Shown: positions 2,951 to 16,890 of the stretch, one piece after another | How the letters are laid out: every line of letters begins with the position of its first letter | Numbering within the stretch: position 1 is the stretch's first letter | DNA from: Candidatus Kurthia intestinigallinarum | GTDB lineage: Bacteria; Bacillota; Bacilli; Bacillales_A; Planococcaceae | Direction of reading: 5' to 3' | Length of the DNA stretch: 64,000 nucleotides | Assembly: GCF_003991225.1 (NCBI RefSeq) | Contig: NZ_JTFC01000009.1 | Span: forward strand, 1 to 64,000 | Program-made: the position numbers and the translations under genes | Notes under the pieces: model-generated | Told to the model about the DNA's origin: nothing | Database searches by the model: none | The model's input: the letters and a program-made list of their open reading frames with translations, nothing else

Positions 2951-3927
2951 TGAGCGAAAAAACGATTGTACAGGCGATTAATGAGGCATTATTTCATGCG
3001 ATGGAGCATGAGGATGTTGTGTTATTAGGCGAAGATGTAGCAACAAACGGCGGTGTATTCCGTGTGACGGATGGGCTGAAGGAAAAGTTTGGCCCGATGC
3101 GTGTCATTGATACACCACTTGCAGAGTCTGGCATTATCGGTACAGCGGTCGGTATGAGTGTTAACGGTTTACGTCCAATCGCAGAAATTCAATTTTTCGG
3201 CTTTATTTATGAAGCAATGGATCAAATGGTTAGCCAGGCTACGCGTATGCGTTACCGCTCAAATGGCCGCTTCCATTCACCGATTGTCGTACGTAGTCCG
3301 TATGGTGCAGGCGTTAATACACCGGAGCTTCATGCAGACAGTATTGAAGCGATTTTTAGTCATTCTCCAGGTATGAAAATTGTGATGCCATCGAGTCCAT
3401 ATGACGCAAAAGGCTTACTTCTTGCAGCAATTGAGGACCCCGATCCGGTACTGTTTTTAGAGCCGATGAGCATTTATCGTTCGGTACGTGAAGAGGTACC
3501 AGATGAAGCGTATACGGTACCGATTGGTGAGGCAAAAATCGTCCAAGAAGGAACGGATGCAACGATTGTGACATGGGGACCGCCTGTTGTATGGCTACAG
3601 CAAGTTGTAGAAGACTATGCAAAACAAGGGGTATCGATCGAGCTAATTGACCTGCGTACAGTGGCGCCGCTAGATATTCATACAATTGTAGCCTCAGTTG
3701 AAAAAACCGAACGATTATGTATTGTACATGAAGCAGTTAAAACAAATGGTATCGGTGCAGAAATTGCTGCGCTTGTTTCAGAACGCGCTATTTTCTCGCT
3801 TGTTGGGCCGATTAAACGTGTGACAGGGTTTGATTCACCTTACCCGGCAGGCACCATTGAACGAGACTGGATGCCAAATCCAAGCCGTGTAAAAATCGCC
3901 ATTGATGAATTACTAACATACGAATAA
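2950..3927 (+). CDS. 2-oxoacid dehydrogenase E1 component, beta subunit
   Basis: E1-beta (325 residues), forming the alpha2-beta2 E1 with the preceding product. It has the transketolase pyrimidine-binding domain (LGEDVATNGGVFRVTDGL, IDTPLAESGIIG, EIQFFGFIYEAMDQ) and the C-terminal transketolase domain (TIVTWGPPV, IDLRTVAPLD). It is translationally coupled to E1-alpha by a one-base overlap. A terminator follows at once, so the operon contains no E3 (dihydrolipoamide dehydrogenase); E3 must be supplied from elsewhere in the genome. Confidence 0.92.
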   Translation: MSEKTIVQAINEALFHAMEHEDVVLLGEDVATNGGVFRVTDGLKEKFGPMRVIDTPLAESGIIGTAVGMSVNGLRPIAEIQFFGFIYEAMDQMVSQATRMRYRSNGRFHSPIVVRSPYGAGVNTPELHADSIEAIFSHSPGMKIVMPSSPYDAKGLLLAAIEDPDPVLFLEPMSIYRSVREEVPDEAYTVPIGEAKIVQEGTDATIVTWGPPVVWLQQVVEDYAKQGVSIELIDLRTVAPLDIHTIVASVEKTERLCIVHEAVKTNGIGAEIAALVSERAIFSLVGPIKRVTGFDSPYPAGTIERDWMPNPSRVKIAIDELLTYE

Positions 3928-3932
3928 AAATT

Positions 3933-3972
3933 AAAAAGTCGCATAAAATGTTCGATAAATGCGACTTTTTTT
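3933..3972 (+). terminator. Terminator of the E2-E1 operon
   Basis: An 11-bp stem (AAAAAGTCGCA, 3933-3943, with TGCGACTTTTT, 3960-3970) and a T-run. Confidence 0.9.
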
Positions 3973-4051
3973 CTGTTGTCTAATTTACAGTATTTATGCG
4001 TTTTCTTTAGTTGTAAAATAAAAAAATTCTTGAAAATTTTCTAAAAATTTA

Positions 4052-4080
4052 TTGACATTAAAACACGGTGTTGTTACGAT
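4052..4080 (+). promoter_or_regulatory. Strong sigma-A promoter of the polyamine leader/operon
   Basis: TTGACA (4052-4057), 17 bases, TACGAT (4075-4080). The -35 is consensus and the spacing ideal, predicting a start near 4087. This is about 410 bases upstream of speD, which implies a very long untranslated leader or a separate small RNA. Confidence 0.8.
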
Positions 4081-4086
4081 AAATGC

Positions 4087-4442
4087 GTTGTTCAACAGGG
4101 AAGTCGTTTTCGAGTGAGTCTTTCCGAGCAATGATTATTTGACCACTCCTTTAAGGAGTTAAGGCCATACGGACAGCCGGGTCGACTGCCGCTTGGTGGA
4201 GCCATTCCACCTATTGATTGAGTTAAAAGCTCAAGTTTTATAAGTTGGTTACTTTACAACCAGTGTTTAAATGCACATCAACTTGTGAAATTGGTCAATA
4301 TGAGTAGTAAAAGTAATTATTTGCTATATAGACTCTAAAAAGCCATGATAGGATTAACTTCGAAACCGATACGGGAATTTAGGCGATTTTTTCTGTTTTT
4401 CTGAACTTGTCTATTTTTTTACGAATTCGTATGTATATATCC
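4087..4442 (+). ncRNA. Structured leader RNA upstream of polyamine operon (candidate riboswitch or sRNA)
   Basis: About 350 nt with no coding potential but many hairpins readable by eye. These are GGGAAG/CTTTCC around an inner TCG-TTTT-CGA; ACTCC/GGAGT (4145-4159); CGG-A-CAG/CTG-CCG (about 4170-4191); GGTGGA/TCCACC with loop GCCAT (4195-4211); TTGAG/CTCAA (4218-4234); and AAGTTG/CAACTT (about 4242-4273) enclosing two smaller hairpins. A GC-rich core (4160-4212) stands out from the AT-rich surroundings. A T-run at 4385-4392 could be the 3' end of an independent RNA. The second terminator at 4443-4483 suggests a transcription-attenuating leader. I could not match it to lysine, SAM, T-box, M-box, c-di-AMP, guanidine or 6S consensus elements. 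Confidence 0.6.
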
Positions 4443-4483
4443 AAGAGCAAGTGATGCCAAAGTGCATTGCTTGCTCTTTTTTT
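4443..4483 (+). terminator. Leader terminator (attenuator) directly before speD
   Basis: A 15-bp stem (4443-4457 with 4464-4478) has nine perfect outer pairs, a six-base loop and a seven-T run (4477-4483). It lies between the leader promoter and the speD ribosome binding site GGAGGTG (4488-4494). With no other promoter evident, expression of the six-gene operon should require reading through this structure, as in riboswitch- or protein-controlled attenuation. Confidence 0.85.
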
Positions 4484-4499
4484 GTTGGAGGTGTGGAAA

Positions 4500-5255
4500 A
4501 TGAAACGATTAAAGCTGTATGGATTTAATAATTTAACAAAGGCACTGAGCTTCAATATTTATGATGTGTGTTATGCGGAGACGTCTGCAGAGCAACAAGC
4601 CTATATAGACTATATTGATGAGCAATACAATGCAGACCGCCTAACGGATATTTTATTGCATGTGACGGAAATGATTGGTGCGCACGTGTTAAATGTCTCA
4701 AAGCAAGATTATGATCCGCAAGGCGCGAGCGTGACGTGTTTAATTGCTGAGCAACAACTAGCGCGCTATGGTAGTGATACACTCGTTGCTCATTTAGATA
4801 AAAGTCATGTGACGGTGCATACATATCCGGAATTTCACCCAGAAAACCATTTAGCGACGTTCCGTGTAGACATTGATGTCGCAACTTGTGGTGAGATTAC
4901 ACCGCTATCGACACTCGACTATTTAATTTCATCATTCGATTCAGATGTCATCACAATGGATTACCGCGTACGAGGATTCACGCGTGATATTCATGGCAAT
5001 AAAGTGTATCTTGACCATCCAGTTCACTCGATTCAAGACTATATTGCGTCTCCTACACTTGCTAAATACGACGTTGACGATATGAATGTCCCACATGCCA
5101 ATCTGTTTCACACGCGAATGCGTTTAAAAGATTTACCACTCGAAAATTATGTATTTGATATGGATTTAACTGACGTGTCGTCGCTTAAAAAAGAGCAGAT
5201 GCTTGCGGCGCTTCACGTCGAAATGGAAGAAATTTTTCACGGAACGGGAGTGTAA
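4500..5255 (+). CDS. speD: S-adenosylmethionine decarboxylase proenzyme (E. coli type)
   Basis: Makes decarboxylated SAM, the aminopropyl donor for spermidine synthase. The 251-residue proenzyme aligns along its length with the Escherichia coli SpeD type (class 1A; LYGFNNLTKALSF start, QDYDPQGASVT, FRVDIDVATCG, DYRVRGFTRDIHG). It is not the short ~125-residue class 1B enzyme typical of Bacillus. Autocleavage should occur in LDKSHVTVHTYPE, with Ser102 becoming the pyruvoyl group. ATG at 4500 follows GGAGGTG by six bases and is chosen over an upstream in-frame start inside the terminator. First gene of the polyamine operon; speA follows after 6 bases. Confidence 0.95.
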   Translation: MKRLKLYGFNNLTKALSFNIYDVCYAETSAEQQAYIDYIDEQYNADRLTDILLHVTEMIGAHVLNVSKQDYDPQGASVTCLIAEQQLARYGSDTLVAHLDKSHVTVHTYPEFHPENHLATFRVDIDVATCGEITPLSTLDYLISSFDSDVITMDYRVRGFTRDIHGNKVYLDHPVHSIQDYIASPTLAKYDVDDMNVPHANLFHTRMRLKDLPLENYVFDMDLTDVSSLKKEQMLAALHVEMEEIFHGTGV

Positions 5256-5261
5256 CGATTC

Positions 5262-6725
5262 ATGCAGCAACTTGCAACAACGCAGCAAAAGGCACCGCTT
5301 TATGAAGCACTGATGCACTTTAAAAAACAACGCATCGTACCGTTTGATGTACCAGGTCACAAGCGAGGTCGTGGTAATCCAGAACTTGCTGCTTTTCTAG
5401 GCGAAGATGCATTGGCCGTCGATGTTAACTCGATGAAACCACTCGATAATTTATGCCATCCTGTATCGGTCATTAAGGAAGCAGAAGAAGTCGCTGCACA
5501 AGCTTTTGGTGCAAACGAAGCCTTTTTTATGGTCGGTGGAACGACATCGGCTGTACAGGCAATGGTCTTTAGCACGACGAAGCAGGGCGATGAAATTATT
5601 CTACCGCGCAATGTCCATCGTAGCGTACTCAATGCGCTCGTGTTAAATGGCGCGATTCCGGTATATGTCAATCCAGAGGCGAATGATGAACTTGGGATTG
5701 CACTCGGCATGTCGATTACCCAAGTACAGCGTGCCATTGAAGAGCATCCAAATGCGAAGGCCGTATTTGTGAATAACCCAACGTATTACGGGATTTGCTC
5801 AGATTTAAAAGGTATCGTTGATGTGGCACATAAAGCAGGTATGAAAGTACTTGCGGATGAGGCACATGGTACGCATTTTTATTTTGGTAAAGATATGCCG
5901 ATTTCGGCAATGGCAGCTGGAGCTGATATGGCTGCAGTGAGCATGCATAAATCAGGCGGCAGCCTAACACAAAGCTCCTTTTTATTAATGGGGCCTGGCA
6001 TGAACGCCGATTATGTACGTCAAGTAGTGAATTTAACGCAGACGACAAGTGCATCGTATTTATTAATGGCGAGTCTGGATTTATCACGTCGCAATTTAGC
6101 GTTAAATGGTCATGACATTTTCCAACAAGTCGTCGATTATACGAATTATGTGCGCGACGAATTGCATGCCATTGGGGGTTATTATGTGTTCGGTAACGAT
6201 TTGATTAACGGCGATAGTGTCTATGATTTAGACCCAACTAAACTTTCTATTCATACTTTAAACGTAGGTTTAGCGGGAATTGAAGTGTACGATATTTTAC
6301 GGGATGATTACGATATTCAAATTGAATTTGGAGATCTTGGAAATATTTTGGCATACATTTCCGTTGGCGACCGCGAGCGTGATATTGAGCGCTTAGTCGG
6401 AGCATTAGCCGATATTAAACGTCGCTTTGAACGTTCGAAAAAAGGCATGCTGACGCAGGAATATCTTGAGCCAGTGGTTGCCATTTCACCGCAACAAGCC
6501 TTTTATGCACAAAAAGAGCTGTTGCCACTTCATGAGGCAATTGGCCGTATATGTGGTGAATTTGTTATGTGCTATCCACCGGGTATTCCGATTTTAGGAC
6601 CAGGGGAAGTCGTGACTGAGGCCGTTGTGACGTATATTGCCTATGCGAAGGAAAAGGGCTGTCAGTTAACCGGCACAGAGGATTTACAAGTAGAAAAATT
6701 AAATGTCGTCAAGGAAGGTGTTTAG
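5262..6725 (+). CDS. speA: Arginine decarboxylase (Orn/Lys/Arg decarboxylase family)
   Basis: PLP enzyme of fold type I, 487 residues, the size of the short Bacillus SpeA-type decarboxylases. Visible motifs are FDVPGHKRGRG near the N-terminus, FMVGGTTSAVQAM, the PLP-binding Asp in LADEAHGTHF and the Schiff-base lysine in SMHKSGGSLTQSS. Arginine rather than lysine or ornithine is inferred from the operon, which holds agmatinase downstream. The product agmatine feeds SpeB. The gene ends one base before the ATG of speE, indicating translational coupling. Confidence 0.88.
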   Translation: MQQLATTQQKAPLYEALMHFKKQRIVPFDVPGHKRGRGNPELAAFLGEDALAVDVNSMKPLDNLCHPVSVIKEAEEVAAQAFGANEAFFMVGGTTSAVQAMVFSTTKQGDEIILPRNVHRSVLNALVLNGAIPVYVNPEANDELGIALGMSITQVQRAIEEHPNAKAVFVNNPTYYGICSDLKGIVDVAHKAGMKVLADEAHGTHFYFGKDMPISAMAAGADMAAVSMHKSGGSLTQSSFLLMGPGMNADYVRQVVNLTQTTSASYLLMASLDLSRRNLALNGHDIFQQVVDYTNYVRDELHAIGGYYVFGNDLINGDSVYDLDPTKLSIHTLNVGLAGIEVYDILRDDYDIQIEFGDLGNILAYISVGDRERDIERLVGALADIKRRFERSKKGMLTQEYLEPVVAISPQQAFYAQKELLPLHEAIGRICGEFVMCYPPGIPILGPGEVVTEAVVTYIAYAKEKGCQLTGTEDLQVEKLNVVKEGV

Positions 6726-7580
6726 ATGGAGCTATGGTATAGCGAGCCACATACGAAAGATGTCAAATTTTCGATTAAAGTGAATAAACAACTCTATAGC
6801 GCACAAAGTGAATTTCAGCGCATTGACGTATTTGAATCAGCGGAGTTTGGCCGTTTTTTAACGCTTGATGGCTATATGATGCTGACGGAAAAAGATGAAT
6901 TTATTTACCATGAAATGCTTGTACATGTACCAATGTCTGTGCATCCAAAAGCAGAAAATATTTTAGTTATTGGTGCAGGAGATGGCGGTATTTTACGCGA
7001 GCTAGCACAGTATCCATCGGTTCAAACGATTGATCTTGTAGAAATTGATGAGCAGGTTATTGACGTGTGTAAAAAGTATTTACCACAAACAGCATGTGGC
7101 TTTGACGACCCACGTGTAACGGTGCATATTGCAGATGGCTTAAAATATGTACGCCATGCAGAAAATCAATATGATGTCATTATCGTCGATTCAACAGATC
7201 CCTTTGGACCAGGTGAAGGGCTCTTTACGAAAGAATTTTACGGCAACTGCTACAACGCGCTGAAATCAGATGGTATTATGGTCAACCAGCATGAAAGTCC
7301 ATTTTACGAAGAGGACCGTTTAGCGATGCAGCGTGCACATAAGCGCATCGTGGAAAGCTTTCCGATTAGTCGCGTTTATCAGGCGCATATTCCGACGTAC
7401 CCATCAGGTCATTGGCTTTTTGGTTTTGCGTCAAAACAGTATCACCCAATTGAGCACCAGCAGGCGGAGCGCTTTAAAAAATTGAATATTCCGACGAAAT
7501 ATTATAATCATCAGTTACATATCGGAGCGTTTTGCCTACCAAACTATGTAGAGGAGCTATTAGCAGATGTTGAAGACTAA
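6726..7580 (+). CDS. speE: Spermidine synthase (aminopropyltransferase)
   Basis: Transfers the aminopropyl group of decarboxylated SAM to putrescine. The 284-residue protein has the Rossmann glycine motif VIGAGDGGILREL, the acidic cofactor residues in LVEIDEQV, the catalytic DSTDPFGPGEGLF loop and the PSGHWLF segment typical of SpeE. The start codon directly follows the speA stop. The last 14 bases overlap the start of speB. Confidence 0.95.
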   Translation: MELWYSEPHTKDVKFSIKVNKQLYSAQSEFQRIDVFESAEFGRFLTLDGYMMLTEKDEFIYHEMLVHVPMSVHPKAENILVIGAGDGGILRELAQYPSVQTIDLVEIDEQVIDVCKKYLPQTACGFDDPRVTVHIADGLKYVRHAENQYDVIIVDSTDPFGPGEGLFTKEFYGNCYNALKSDGIMVNQHESPFYEEDRLAMQRAHKRIVESFPISRVYQAHIPTYPSGHWLFGFASKQYHPIEHQQAERFKKLNIPTKYYNHQLHIGAFCLPNYVEELLADVED

Positions 7581-8424
7581 TATTCAAACATTTATCGGCT
7601 GTGAAGCGGATTACCGCGACGCAACGCATGTATTATACGGCGTGCCATTTGATGGGACGACGAGCTATCGTCCGGGGACACGTTTTGGTCCATCGGCCGT
7701 ACGCGCAGAATCATTTGGTTTAGAAACGTATAGCCCGTACCAAGATAAGGATTTAACGGATTATGCAGTGTTTGATAGTGGCGATTTAGAGCTACCATTT
7801 GGTAACCCAGTGCGTGTGTTAGAGGCAATTGAAGCACGTGCAACAACCATTTTAGACGATGGGAAATTTCCATTTATGGTTGGCGGTGAGCATTTAGTGA
7901 CCCTTGGAGCCGTACGTGCAGCGTTTAAAAAACATCCAGATTTACATATGATTCATTTCGATGCGCATACGGATTTACGGGATGATTATTTAGGCGAAAA
8001 ATTATCACATGCGACCGTATTACGTCGCTGCCATGATTTACTAGGCGACCAAAAAATTTATCATTTTGGTATTCGCTCAGGCGACCGTCCAGAATTTAAA
8101 TGGGCAGACGAGGGCCATACAACGCTTCAAAAATTTAATTTCGATGGTTTAGCACAAGCACTACAAGCCATTGGTAATAAGCCAGTCTATTTCACGATTG
8201 ATTTAGATGTCCTCGACCCGTCAGAGTTTCCGGGAACGGGGACACCAGAAGCGGGTGGTGTAACATTTACAGCACTTATTGACGCATTGATTGCTGTTAG
8301 TAAACAGGCCAATGTTGTCGCTTGTGATGTCAATGAGCTCGCACCAATTTATGATCCATCCGGCCGTTCAACGGCACTTGCAGGAAAAGTTATTCGCGAG
8401 TTTTTAATCGCACTTCAAAAATAG
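7567..8424 (+). CDS. speB: Agmatinase (ureohydrolase family)
   Basis: Hydrolyses agmatine to putrescine and urea. The 285-residue protein shows all binuclear manganese motifs: GGEH, HFDAHTDLRD and FTIDLDVLDPSEFPGTGTPE. The C-terminal ELAPIYDPSGRSTALAG block is also present. It overlaps speE by 14 bases. An alternative substrate, N1-aminopropylagmatine, cannot be excluded, because SpeE of some bacteria acts on agmatine and the operon also holds an aspartate-semialdehyde branch. Confidence 0.93.
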   Translation: MLKTNIQTFIGCEADYRDATHVLYGVPFDGTTSYRPGTRFGPSAVRAESFGLETYSPYQDKDLTDYAVFDSGDLELPFGNPVRVLEAIEARATTILDDGKFPFMVGGEHLVTLGAVRAAFKKHPDLHMIHFDAHTDLRDDYLGEKLSHATVLRRCHDLLGDQKIYHFGIRSGDRPEFKWADEGHTTLQKFNFDGLAQALQAIGNKPVYFTIDLDVLDPSEFPGTGTPEAGGVTFTALIDALIAVSKQANVVACDVNELAPIYDPSGRSTALAGKVIREFLIALQK

Positions 8425-8442
8425 AAAAGGGGTTATGTAAAA

Positions 8443-9642
8443 ATGGGTAAAGCATTAATTATTGGCTGTGGCGGTGTCGCATCAGTCGCAATTCATAAAT
8501 GTGTACAAAATAGCGAGGTATTTGAGGAGATTTGTATCGCAAGTCGTACAAAATCAAAATGTGATGCCTTAAAGGAAAAATTAGATGGCCAAGGAACGAT
8601 TATTACAACGGCACAAGTAGACGCAGATAATGTAGAAGAATTAATCGCTTTAATTAATGAAGTGAAGCCAGATATCGTCATGAACCTAGCACTTCCATAT
8701 CAAGATTTAACAATTATGGATGCATGTTTAGCGACGAAAACGCATTATATGGATACAGCCAATTATGAGCCTGAAGATACAGCGAAATTTGAATATAAAT
8801 GGCAATGGGAATACCGCGAACGTTTTGAAGAAGCGGGCATTACGGCATTACTTGGTTCAGGTTTTGACCCAGGTGTGACCGGTGTATTCTCAGCACATGC
8901 ATTAAAACATCATTTCGATGAAATTAATTACATCGATATTTTAGATTGTAATGCTGGCGACCACGGCTATCCATTCGCTACCAATTTTAACCCAGAGATT
9001 AATATTCGCGAAGTAACGGCAAATGGCTCGTATTGGGAAAATGGTGACTGGGTAGAAACAGCGCCAATGGAAATCAAACGTGTATACAACTTCCCGGAAG
9101 TCGGCGAAAAGGATATGTATTTACTACATCATGAAGAGTTAGAATCGCTTGCATTAAATATTCCGGGTATTAAACGTATTCGCTTCTTCATGACATTCGG
9201 TGAATCGTATTTACGCCACTTACAATGTTTAGAAAACGTTGGTATGACAGCGATTGAGCCTATTATGTATGAAGGAAAAGAAATCATTCCGCTCCAATTT
9301 TTAAAAGCCGTACTACCAGATCCAGCATCTCTTGGTCCACGTACAAAAGGGAAAACAAATATCGGCTGTATTTTCCGCGGTAAAAAAGATGGCCAAGATA
9401 AAACATATTATGTTTATAATGTGTGTGACCACGAGGCGTGTTACGCGGAGGTTGGCTCACAGGCAGTATCTTATACGACAGGTGTACCAGCCATGATTGG
9501 CGCAGCACTTGTGATGAATGGTACATGGCAAAAACCAGGTGTCTACAATATCGAGGAGTTTGACCCAGATCCATTCATGGAAGGCTTAAATAAATGGGGC
9601 CTACCATGGCAAGAAAGCTTAACGCCGGAGCTTGTTGATTAG
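8443..9642 (+). CDS. Carboxyspermidine/carboxynorspermidine dehydrogenase (saccharopine dehydrogenase family)
   Basis: Condenses a diamine (putrescine, 1,3-diaminopropane or perhaps agmatine) with L-aspartate beta-semialdehyde and reduces the imine with NAD(P)H. The 399-residue protein has an N-terminal Rossmann fold with IIGCGGVASVAIHKC, followed by SRTKSKCDAL and the family signature LLGSGFDPGVTGVFSAHAL. Length and motifs fit the CANSDH/CASDH group rather than lysine-forming saccharopine dehydrogenase. The ribosome binding site AAAGGGG precedes ATG 8443. The next gene encodes the partner decarboxylase, which supports the assignment. Confidence 0.88.
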   Translation: MGKALIIGCGGVASVAIHKCVQNSEVFEEICIASRTKSKCDALKEKLDGQGTIITTAQVDADNVEELIALINEVKPDIVMNLALPYQDLTIMDACLATKTHYMDTANYEPEDTAKFEYKWQWEYRERFEEAGITALLGSGFDPGVTGVFSAHALKHHFDEINYIDILDCNAGDHGYPFATNFNPEINIREVTANGSYWENGDWVETAPMEIKRVYNFPEVGEKDMYLLHHEELESLALNIPGIKRIRFFMTFGESYLRHLQCLENVGMTAIEPIMYEGKEIIPLQFLKAVLPDPASLGPRTKGKTNIGCIFRGKKDGQDKTYYVYNVCDHEACYAEVGSQAVSYTTGVPAMIGAALVMNGTWQKPGVYNIEEFDPDPFMEGLNKWGLPWQESLTPELVD

Positions 9643-9643
9643 C

Positions 9644-10771
9644 ATGAAGATAACTGATATTGCGACGCCTGCCTATGTGGTAGACGAAACATTAATTGAG
9701 CGGAATCTGCGCATTTTAAAGGAAGTCATCGACGAAACAGGCTGTCATATTTTATTAGCGCAAAAGGCATTTAGCATGTATAGCTTGTATCCGTTAATCG
9801 GGGAATATTTACATGGGACAACGGCAAGCGGTTTATATGAAGCAAAGCTTGGCTATGAGGAAATGGGCAAGGAAAATCATATTTTTTCACCAGCCTATAA
9901 AGACAGTGATTTTGCGGAAATCGTATCGATTTGCGATCATATTGTCTTTAACTCATTTTCACAGTTAACACGCTTTGGCGAGCAAGTAGTAGCTGCAGGG
10001 AAAAGCATTGGGCTGCGTATTAATCCAGAGCACTCCACACAAGTAGGACATGAAATTTATGACCCTTGTGCGAAAGGTTGTCGTTTTGGCATTACCGCAC
10101 AGCATTTTGACCGTGAGGCACTTGCGAATGTTTCGGGGCTGCATTTTCATACATTATGCGAGCAAGATAGTGATGATCTGTGGACAACGATTTTAGCAGT
10201 AGAGGAGCGCTTTGGTGATGTGCTGTATGACATGGAATGGCTGAATTTTGGCGGAGGTCATCATATTACAAAACCGGGCTATAATCTAGCGCTACTAAAA
10301 AAATGCATTACGTATATGAAGCAAAAGTATAATTTAAGCATTTACTTAGAGCCAGGCGAGGCTATCGCATACGAAGCGGGCTATCTTGTAACGACCGTTC
10401 TAGATACGACATATAATGACGGAGATATCGCTATTTTGGATACGTCTGCCTCTTGTCATATGCCAGATGTGCTTGAAATGCCGTACCGTCCACCACTTCA
10501 AAACAGTGGGGAAGCGGGTGAAAAAGCACATACGTATCGTCTCGGTGGCCCGACCTGTCTTGCGGGGGATGTCATCGGCAATTATTCATTTGATGCACCG
10601 CTTAAGCCGGGTGACCGACTTGTCTTTGAAGATATGGCGATTTATTCAATGGTGAAAAATAATACGTTTAATGGGATGGCATTACCGGATTTAGTTATTC
10701 AAGATCGCGATGGAAATTGTCGTTTACAAAAACGCTTTGGCTATGAAGATTTTAAAGGGCGCCTTTCCTAA
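9644..10771 (+). CDS. nspC: Carboxyspermidine/carboxynorspermidine decarboxylase
   Basis: PLP enzyme of the alanine racemase/fold III group that decarboxylates carboxy(nor)spermidine to (nor)spermidine. The 375-residue protein starts MKITDIATPAYVVDE and carries the PLP lysine in LLAQKAFSM. The SGLHFHTLCEQ block and the glycine-rich phosphate-binding NFGGGHHITK are diagnostic for the family. The cysteine motif SASCHMPD is present near the C-terminal half. ATG 9644 begins two bases after the stop of the dehydrogenase; an upstream TTG would overlap it. Last gene of the polyamine operon. Confidence 0.9.
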   Translation: MKITDIATPAYVVDETLIERNLRILKEVIDETGCHILLAQKAFSMYSLYPLIGEYLHGTTASGLYEAKLGYEEMGKENHIFSPAYKDSDFAEIVSICDHIVFNSFSQLTRFGEQVVAAGKSIGLRINPEHSTQVGHEIYDPCAKGCRFGITAQHFDREALANVSGLHFHTLCEQDSDDLWTTILAVEERFGDVLYDMEWLNFGGGHHITKPGYNLALLKKCITYMKQKYNLSIYLEPGEAIAYEAGYLVTTVLDTTYNDGDIAILDTSASCHMPDVLEMPYRPPLQNSGEAGEKAHTYRLGGPTCLAGDVIGNYSFDAPLKPGDRLVFEDMAIYSMVKNNTFNGMALPDLVIQDRDGNCRLQKRFGYEDFKGRLS

Positions 10772-15675: not shown

Positions 15676-16890
15676 ATGAAAAAAATGACAAAAACAGCGA
15701 TGGCTACTTTATTTACAGGAGCGATGGCACTAAGTGCTGTGGCAACACCTGCAAGTGCACTTGAAAAACGTGTGATCGATGAAACAACAGCAAAAACAAC
15801 TACGACATCAATTAACGGGCAATTAGATACTGATTCAATTGATGTCGTTAAAGTAACTGTACCAACTAATGGTGAGTTAAAAGTACATATCGCAGATGCG
15901 AAGAATAAAGGTTTATCCGTTATGTTAACAACAAAATTAAATCCATTTTACTCATATGAGTTTACAACACTTGGGGATATTTTTGATTACTTACGTCCTG
16001 TTAAACTAACAGATGTAGAATCTGTATTAGAAGAATTACTTGATTCTTCATCAGCAATCAACTACGGTGTGAACGAAAAATTCTTAACAGAAGGTGACGA
16101 TTCATACGAAAGCTTAACAGGCGAGTATTTACCATTAGAAGAGCCTTCACCAACATTTAAAACCGGTTTAAAAGCAGGCACATACTATTTAGTTGTAACA
16201 GGTGGGTCATTAAAAGAGTATAAAGATTCAACGTACCGTCTAACAACAAAATTTGAAGCGAAAAATAAAATTGAGTTAGAAAGCAATAATGATCGTAAAT
16301 CAGCAACAGCATTACCATTAAATAAAACATTTACGGGCGTTGCCAATGATTTAGACCCAATGGATTACTTTAAAGTAGACGTTGCAGAAGCAGGGAACCT
16401 TGTGTTAAAAGCGACATCATCAAATCCGAATGCAGATTTAGGCTACACATTATATGATGCCAACCGTAAAGGCGTTAAAAACTTTGAATATGTTGCGAAT
16501 CGCCAAGCAACTAAATTAACAAGCTCAACTTATGTTAATAAAGGAACATACTATGTACGCGTAGCAGGTTCTGACGAAGAAGTATTTGGTCATTCAAATT
16601 ATTCATTGAAAGCAAATGTTGTTACTAAATCTGTAAAACGTTCAAATGTTGTCGTGAAAAATGCTGCAAAATCAACAATTACTTTAAAAGCATTACCAGT
16701 TGGTGCAACAGTAAATGTCTATAGTGATGCGAAGAAAAAGAAAAAAGTAACAAGCTTCAAAGCGACAAGTGCCACAATGACAAAAGCCATTAAATTAAAT
16801 AAAAAAGGTGGCAACCTATACGTAGCACTTAAAAAATCAACACTTGCAGAAGGTGCTGCCACAAAAGTACCATACAACAAAGCAAAATAG
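15676..16890 (+). CDS. Secreted protein with two PPC-like beta domains
   Basis: A 404-residue exported protein. The signal peptide is MKKMTKTAMATLFTGAMALS (start) with an AxA cleavage site ATPASA before residue 29-30. Two regions (about 45-190 and 205-315) look like bacterial pre-peptidase C-terminal (PPC) beta-sandwich domains, with the pattern NG-L-DS-D-V-VTVP and the GTYYVRVAG/GTYYLVVTG strand. The lysine-rich C-terminal part (about 320-404) may bind anionic cell wall polymers. No protease or LPXTG motif is seen. GGGGGATT is the ribosome binding site. Confidence 0.75.
   Translation: MKKMTKTAMATLFTGAMALSAVATPASALEKRVIDETTAKTTTTSINGQLDTDSIDVVKVTVPTNGELKVHIADAKNKGLSVMLTTKLNPFYSYEFTTLGDIFDYLRPVKLTDVESVLEELLDSSSAINYGVNEKFLTEGDDSYESLTGEYLPLEEPSPTFKTGLKAGTYYLVVTGGSLKEYKDSTYRLTTKFEAKNKIELESNNDRKSATALPLNKTFTGVANDLDPMDYFKVDVAEAGNLVLKATSSNPNADLGYTLYDANRKGVKNFEYVANRQATKLTSSTYVNKGTYYVRVAGSDEEVFGHSNYSLKANVVTKSVKRSNVVVKNAAKSTITLKALPVGATVNVYSDAKKKKKVTSFKATSATMTKAIKLNKKGGNLYVALKKSTLAEGAATKVPYNKAK

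Follow-up and report, generated by a model that had tools for sequence, protein, structure and literature searches.

The leader RNA in front of the polyamine operon of Candidatus Kurthia intestinigallinarum is probably a cis-acting riboswitch of an undescribed class, which would bind a polyamine directly and turn the operon off by terminating transcription. It lies in the window analysed here, that is the whole stretch of 64,000 nucleotides taken from this bacterium. That the RNA is a cis-acting attenuator for polyamine genes is a firmer claim than the identity of its ligand. On balance, we further think that it represents a second natural class of polyamine riboswitch, structurally unrelated to the first and far more widespread: an RNA with a pseudoknot, roughly 130-230 nt long and found in Bacilli and Clostridia, which would serve both polyamine synthesis and uptake and would be swapped for the SAM-I-derived spermidine riboswitch in related lineages. 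A first-pass annotation had read the region as an attenuator leader with an aptamer-like RNA and a ligand from the pathway; judged from sequence, this interpretation appears supported by a conserved core, by an antiterminator and a helix (P1) that co-vary, and by a gene context kept in 150 of 151 loci.

A structured leader precedes a six-gene polyamine operon

The pdh-type operon upstream of the leader ends at 3927; by eye, a T run follows a hairpin at about 3937-3973, between this operon and the promoter. The promoter (Table 1) scores highest among the 15 promoter-like sites in 3500-8500, where 12.1 are expected by chance, and a similar motif is seen by eye in leaders of the same genus (L003, L005 and L006). 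Transcription would start near 4087, and about 360 nt of structured RNA lie between promoter and terminator in a leader of about 410 nt in all. The operon that follows, speD-speA-speE-speB-CASDH-CASDC, consists of six genes, all encoding enzymes. Because only 16 nt separate the end of the U run from the start of speD, there is no room for a separate speD promoter downstream of 4483, the counter-explanation named in the first-pass annotation, and the leader does lie directly before speD as described there. The terminator was also described correctly as to its 15 pairs and its run of seven U (4477-4483), except that two of the seven lie within the stem. At the very start of the window, a Bacillaceae-1 RNA (49-116), a 5S rRNA (121-236) and a tRNA (237-309) stand in a row.

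The leader is indeed structured: none of 100 dinucleotide shuffles folds as well (z -3.97), and 4110-4338 outdoes each of 200 (z -4.56). It had also been called GC-rich, which it is in 4140-4210 only (57.7%); the leader as a whole has 37.5% GC against 38.6% for the window, and the core 28.3%. Moreover, the aptamer-like core had been placed at 4145-4273 and had to be moved, since the core comprises 4211-4337 together with the P1 strand 4128-4139, and 4140-4192 is peripheral. The linker 4338-4440, which by eye differs between genera, was not counted as part of the switch.

Table 1. Features of the leader and operon in the window, and SAM-I-like aptamers of related operons (last row, positions within each locus).
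Feature	Position	Strand	Remarks
Sigma-70-type promoter	4052-4080	+	TTGACA-17-TACGAT, TG before -10
P1, 5' strand	4128-4139	+	Pairs with 4312-4319 and 4321-4324; crosses P6 (pseudoknot)
Peripheral P2 domain (RF02440)	4140-4192	+	P2 4141-4144/4180-4183, hairpin 4145-4159; optional in the family
Hairpin P2b (GGUGGAG/UUCCACC)	4195-4211	+	Pairs vary on both sides among relatives
Conserved core (model R1)	4211-4337	+	127.8 bits, E 2e-25; window sequence part of the training set
P3	4212-4300	+	4212-4218/4294-4300, enclosing hairpin P3a 4219-4233
P4	4236-4290	+	4236-4245/4281-4290, near-invariant; inside, hairpins P5a 4247-4261 and P5b 4263-4276
Antiterminator strand A (CAUC-A-ACUUGU)	4276-4286	+	Within P5b and P4; co-varies with terminator 5' arm
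P6	4302-4335	+	4302-4305/4332-4335; loop contains P1 3' strand
Intrinsic terminator	4443-4483	+	Stem 4443-4478, 15 pairs; U run 4477-4483
Antiterminator strand B (GCAAGUGAUG)	4447-4456	+	In terminator 5' arm
speD, adenosylmethionine decarboxylase	4500-5255	+	TIGR03331, 377.4 bits
speA-type Orn/Lys/Arg decarboxylase	5262-6725	+	No NCBIfam model at cut-off
speE, spermidine synthase	6726-7580	+	PRK00811, 403.1 bits
speB, agmatinase	7567-8424	+	TIGR01230, 290 bits
CASDH, carboxy(nor)spermidine synthase/dehydrogenase-like	8443-9642	+	420.9 bits, under the model cut-off of 800
CASDC / nspC, carboxy(nor)spermidine decarboxylase	9632-10771	+	TIGR01047, 462.9 bits
SAM-I-like aptamers	L246 1340-1461; L250 3378-3498; L251 2535-2659; L252 3306-3428		

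An Rfam family covers a peripheral domain of the leader

A covariance search of the leader against Rfam matched RF02440 (SpF59_sRNA, "Streptococcus sRNA", ldcC RNA) at 4140-4192, with 68.9 bits against a gathering threshold of 37.2. In 3900-4700, a cmscan with E up to 10 gave no other family at its cut-off, the remaining nine matches listed all falling below; on this ground SAM-I, T-box, lysine and other known classes were discarded. The same search returned no SAM-family match at all in 3900-4700, and the core, 4211-4337, had no Rfam match at cut-off. Two loci that have the core without P2 (L063 and L165) gave neither RF02440 nor anything above a cut-off in a permissive cmscan. As far as these searches show, the core is absent from Rfam 15, and RF02440 describes an accessory domain. 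The family and the leader share their gene context, including Streptococcus-like loci before speA/ldcC, but the Rfam entry, 54 nt described as a Streptococcus sRNA, comprises only the optional P2 domain and is without the core, P1/P6, switch, regulon and spread reported below. The first-pass annotation had likened the aptamer-like part to none of several known riboswitch classes, which is right for the core; 4140-4192 does match a family, listed as an sRNA. This match is not to an unrelated RNA: it is a fragment of the same leader in other polyamine operons.

Spread of the family

RF02440 matched 7 of 61 near genomes, 31 of 398 genomes of the class and 18 of 398 of the phylum (own genome counted each time), and among those matches conservation reached far past its 54 nt. 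A pattern scan made from the most conserved part found at least 119 stretches in named genome contigs. Bacillus, Neobacillus, Paenibacillus, Streptococcus, Blautia, Faecalibacterium, Phascolarctobacterium, Lachnospiraceae, Oscillospiraceae and others are represented among the matches listed. Sufficient upstream sequence was available for 108 dereplicated loci, 79 of which have the CGGACAG motif of the P2 domain; among the remaining 29, it is changed in some (e.g. L057, L103), missing in others (e.g. L049, L061, L063, L068, L100, L132) and outside the range in L055.

A covariance model of the core alone, R1, is blind to genes and was trained on loci that it met again in its genome searches. Its matches fell in 38 genomes of the class draw and 23 of the phylum draw, each of 398 genomes (57 distinct matches), 7 and 5 genomes more than for RF02440; every RF02440-positive genome in both draws was also R1-positive, and the draws look alike. 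R1 also hit the window at 16599-16695 with E 0.72; this second match was taken as chance.

In all, 166 loci were gathered, 159 with the search pattern and 153 with a full core, L051, L109, L115, L131, L155 and L157 being lost at the latter step; dereplication left 113, and 90 entered alignment A1, which required a length of 95-150 and the CTCT end motif. Because rows were selected in this way (scan loci by a pattern over core columns 2-37, the core cut by a TCAATA/GTCAGTA motif, and the CTCT end), conservation of the P3 strands, the P4 5' strand and the P6 3' strand in A1 is partly by construction, from which the P4 3' strand is exempt. The RF02440 searches supplied a set free of this bias, 47 loci with the window among them: the P4 and P3 3' strands were found in 47 of 47 and P6 in 45 (not in L032 and L033).

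The loop between the P5b and P4 arms holds an extra segment of about 130 nt in two leaders of pot genes, L106 and L129. The two inserts are related in opposite orientation (local score 116 for the reverse complement, 27 direct), which would fit a small mobile or repeat element that landed there twice.

The core is conserved and its helices co-vary in part

P4 is formed by ten pairs (UUUUAUAAGU/ACUUGUGAAA) with two hairpins inside, and P6 by GAGU/ACUC. Across the 90 aligned sequences, 94.3% of the cells are paired, against 34-44% when partners are slid by 1-3 columns. Changes on both sides occur in 9 of the 37 core pairs, mostly in hairpins, a level reached by 1 of 500 shuffles in a control that ignores relatedness. 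P3, P4 and P6 are close to invariant; this supports function and not pairing as such, and covariation speaks neither for nor against these helices. P2 and its hairpin co-vary, according to RNAalifold counts.

P1 is read in many relatives as GCAAAUA upstream and UAUUUGC inside the P6 loop. It was examined in 94 loci (25 after dereplication), a few seemingly misplaced anchors such as L031 and L036 being kept. Covariation was found at the predicted place, offset -12 (z -6.1, 0 of 5000 shuffled pairings), and at the adjacent window, -18 (z -3.8, 0 of 5000); one other of the 13 windows scanned, away from the predicted place, reached z -2.9. Since P1 and P6 cross, the RNA is pseudoknotted if both form. 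The leader thus contains what is looked for in an aptamer, a conserved structured domain with covariation (in P1 and in 9 of 37 core pairs), and covariation among relatives, which the first-pass annotation had proposed as a check, is present both in P1 and in the antiterminator described below.

In the window, the energy model prefers an alternative outer pairing, 5' GAGUC with 3' GACUC (P6). Only 46 of 110 dereplicated loci have GAGTC ahead of the core, and the pairing could be an alternative state.

A short frame, 4300-4338, runs through the end of the core, and attenuation by a leader peptide or by ribosomes through this frame would be another way to control the terminator. The window does have an ATG...TAA frame of 12 codons there. 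However, ATG is found in just 4 of the 90 aligned rows (L001, L003, L071 and L088), 85 having AAG and one ACG, no good ribosome binding site is seen upstream by eye, and the overlap with conserved P6/P1 sequence explains the conservation of the frame. With a start codon in so few cores, we discarded it as a conserved translated ORF and consider such a mechanism hardly credible.

An antiterminator would compete with the folded core

A terminator-like hairpin lies downstream of 127 of the 153 full cores, and some of the 26 misses have no downstream sequence. The tests that follow took only hairpins with an energy of -9.9 or lower and no more than 200 nt away. The distance filter removed the wrong-looking hairpins of L072 and L102, and doubtful ones such as those of L050, L060, L065 and L104 were kept; the pairing test (dereplicated 47) and the duplex comparison covered 117 loci, and the scan test, which also needed 100 nt upstream, covered 113 (dereplicated 50).

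The 5' arms of these terminators mirror a strand of the core that ends in CUUGUG: CAUCAACUUGU pairs with GCAAGUGAUG in the window and some other Bacilli, CAGACUUGUG with CACAAGCUG in L036, GCAUAC with GUAUGC before pot operons (L055, L075) and AAGGUC with GACCUU in L100. Averaged over 50 dereplicated loci, the pairing has -13.0 kcal/mol with each locus's own partner versus -9.5 kcal/mol with exchanged partners (z -10.6, 0 of 5000). When 34 windows were scanned along the leader, only four around CUUGUG stood out, at -22, -16 and -10 (0 of 2000 each) and weakly at -4 (6 of 2000). The partner is the 5' arm (z -6.2 without the loop, -10.6 with it); the 3' arm, which served as control, was rejected with z -1.5 and -2.7 (13 of 5000 with the loop).

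Strand 4276-4286 belongs to P4 and P5b, and the antiterminator and the folded core are therefore mutually exclusive, as is required of the expression platform of a riboswitch. Folding of the core frees the terminator to form; thus the leader would be an OFF switch. In 96 of 117 loci, as an OFF switch requires, the antiterminator duplex is stronger than that of P4. The window is one of the 21 exceptions, with -13.2 or -13.7 for P4 (by strand length) versus -10.7 for the antiterminator, and nested folding of its nascent RNA favours P4 by about 7 kcal/mol, in energies that ignore the pseudoknot and the order of co-transcriptional folding.

We propose the following mechanism. When polyamine is scarce, 4276-4286 would pair with 4447-4456 in the 5' arm and block the terminator, and speD-speA-speE-speB-CASDH-CASDC would be transcribed. 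A bound polyamine would hold P4 and P1 together, the terminator would fold and transcription would stop near 4483.

Polyamine genes follow the core

Downstream sequence was readable in 151 loci (the 159 pattern loci minus 8 with too little of it; window included, not dereplicated). Among the matches listed, a polyamine gene comes next in 150 of these, on the same strand and 167-594 nt from the core: speA in 59, CASDH in 52, speD in 21 and potA in 18. The sole exception among the matches listed, L155, precedes a peptidase-like gene. By eye, its core and terminator (18-239) are intact before what looks like a peptidase-like lipoprotein, and a short P5 excluded it from the 153 full cores. In L112, a small P-II-like frame stands by eye before potA, and the core is without the usual GAGUAGUAA segment.

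In L055 and L143, the potA protein scores above the cut-off of NF043075 (spermidine/putrescine transporter), and in L068 this model is its best match. All 49 R1 matches examined, of 57, precede CASDH (30), speD (10) or speA (9), the window and known loci among them; the eight outside this check include the two weakest (E 5.5e-5 and 3.7e-4). Divergent R1 copies without the search pattern (L213-L215) precede speD, a weaker match of 32.4 bits precedes speA in L249, and the core pattern is found before speA in leaders of S. suis (L120) and S. gallinaceus (L109). In Paenibacillus-type loci, CASDH is the first gene. The RNA thus stands before genes of one metabolite, as expected of a riboswitch, in the pattern loci among the matches listed (150 of 151) as in the model matches (49 of 49).

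potA operons move polyamines, and CASDH uses putrescine. Because synthesis and uptake stand under one RNA and CASDH comes first in Paenibacillus-type loci, spermidine or its precursor putrescine is indicated; we would rank spermidine first and putrescine second. Among the ligands that the first-pass annotation had named, the polyamines fit best, since this RNA also stands before potABCD operons, and SAM, arginine and agmatine are less suitable. A riboswitch for one of these other pathway metabolites, or for decarboxylated SAM, would make sense within the operon, where SAM is the substrate of speD and arginine and agmatine are handled by speA and speB. We nevertheless hold it to be improbable, given that among the matches listed 18 loci precede potA and 52 precede CASDH, and neither SAM nor agmatine is common to both.

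The gene context also bears on the view expressed by the Rfam name and by the pneumococcal catalogues, in which the RNA is a trans-acting small RNA. It is entered there as an sRNA of 82-327 nt in the SP0915-SP0916 gap (PMC3395615, PMC12323649, PMC2887815), under the names F59, srn235, Spd_sr49 and SN20 in the available text of these papers, one of which guessed an FMN switch (PMC2887815). SP_0916 is an arginine decarboxylase, according to the title of PMC7531197. However, polyamine genes come next in 150 of 151 loci among the matches listed, and the terminator co-varies with the core, which would be needless in a free sRNA; a function in trans in place of attenuation is very improbable. Most simply, the catalogued pneumococcal RNA would be the prematurely terminated leader, for which a second role in trans is possible.

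SAM-I-like aptamers stand before related operons

speE was found at E up to 1e-40 in 46 of the 61 near genomes. The upstream parts of seven related operons contain a SAM-I-like aptamer in four cases (L246 of the same genus; L250, L251 and L252 of the same family), with 41.7-44.6 bits against a gathering threshold of 44.4 (RF00162). A metK-like gene and then a speA/ldcC-like decarboxylase follow the aptamer in L246, L250 and L251, with speD too in L246; NCBIfam confirms metK in L246 and L251 and speD in L246, and the operon of L252 was read in part. L247 and L248 have neither a SAM-I-like aptamer nor an R1 element, and L249 has the weak R1 copy only. The leader of L248 (3250-3410), a family member, stands before an operon of the same speD-speA type, is without RF02440 or R1 and differs from ours; it ends by eye in a long hairpin, approximately GGTCCCTCTCCAATC...GATTGGAGAGGGAC, and a T run; it is perhaps a third type of attenuator.

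A SAM-I variant has been published as a spermidine riboswitch before polyamine genes of Lysinibacillus, Viridibacillus, Sporosarcina and others, in the sections of PMC10853860 that are accessible. The aptamers of L246 and L250-L252 are likely, by their sequence and position, further members of that class; since metK comes first in L246, L250 and L251, an unusual true SAM switch is possible there. Like our leader, the published riboswitch stands before polyamine genes in Bacilli and is described as a transcription-terminating OFF switch. It differs in its four-stem SAM-I fold, and the leader in the window gives no SAM-I match (RF00162) in 3900-4700 at E up to 10. The same text reports 13 examples (PMC10853860), versus at least 119 stretches of the present class.

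These replacements matter for a further reading, in which a polyamine-sensing RNA-binding protein would bind the core and stabilise P4, with the same antiterminator and terminator. The anatomy of the switch is silent on what stabilises the core, and the long conserved AU-rich strands could be protein sites. On the other hand, a pseudoknotted core of more than 120 nt would have the architecture of an aptamer, unlike short protein sites, a look-alike of the spermidine riboswitch takes its place in 4 of 7 related operons, and the six genes of the operon all encode enzymes. A protein-dependent attenuator therefore seems unlikely to us, and we retain direct binding of a polyamine as the preferred explanation.

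Discussion

Other structured RNAs precede polyamine genes. The speF (PMC11477304), odc1 and potE (PMC8632094) motifs share this position with our leader; the odc1 motif incorporates a uORF, and only RF02440 reaches an Rfam cut-off in the leader. The ABC-leader of Haemophilus and Pasteurella is likewise a predicted attenuator before potABCD (PMC2965389), but it belongs to Gammaproteobacteria.

Within the accessible open literature, we found no description of the core as a riboswitch. A 2017 list reportedly comprises 224 candidate RNAs. The polyamine terms searched for did not occur in the available main texts of PMC11109978 and PMC6429828; what was available of PMC2864571 and PMC10043782 held only an unrelated decarboxylase and only fungal claims on spermidine, respectively, and that of PMC6296669 nothing on SP_0916.

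In the parts of the pneumococcal studies that are available, expression data bear on the direction of the switch. In S. pneumoniae without potABCD, qRT-PCR gave a 16.9-fold rise of speA and a 14.4-fold rise of speE, with no rise in RNA-seq of the same study (PMC8540371). AMXT 1501 raises five pneumococcal polyamine genes 1.4-1.9-fold, and DFMO, which lowers polyamines, lowers two of them 1.5-fold (PMC10887117). These data would agree in part with an OFF switch.

The paper on the validated polyamine riboswitch holds, in its accessible text, that the finding of further polyamine classes "seems certain" (PMC10853860). The leader described here is a testable candidate for such a class, with a defined core, switch strands, a regulon and a wide host range. 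For RNA structure, its interest would lie in how a flexible polycation can be recognised without the SAM-I fold. It would recast a catalogued pneumococcal sRNA as a polyamine leader, and it would explain the control of polyamine synthesis and uptake in many Gram-positive bacteria of gut and soil.
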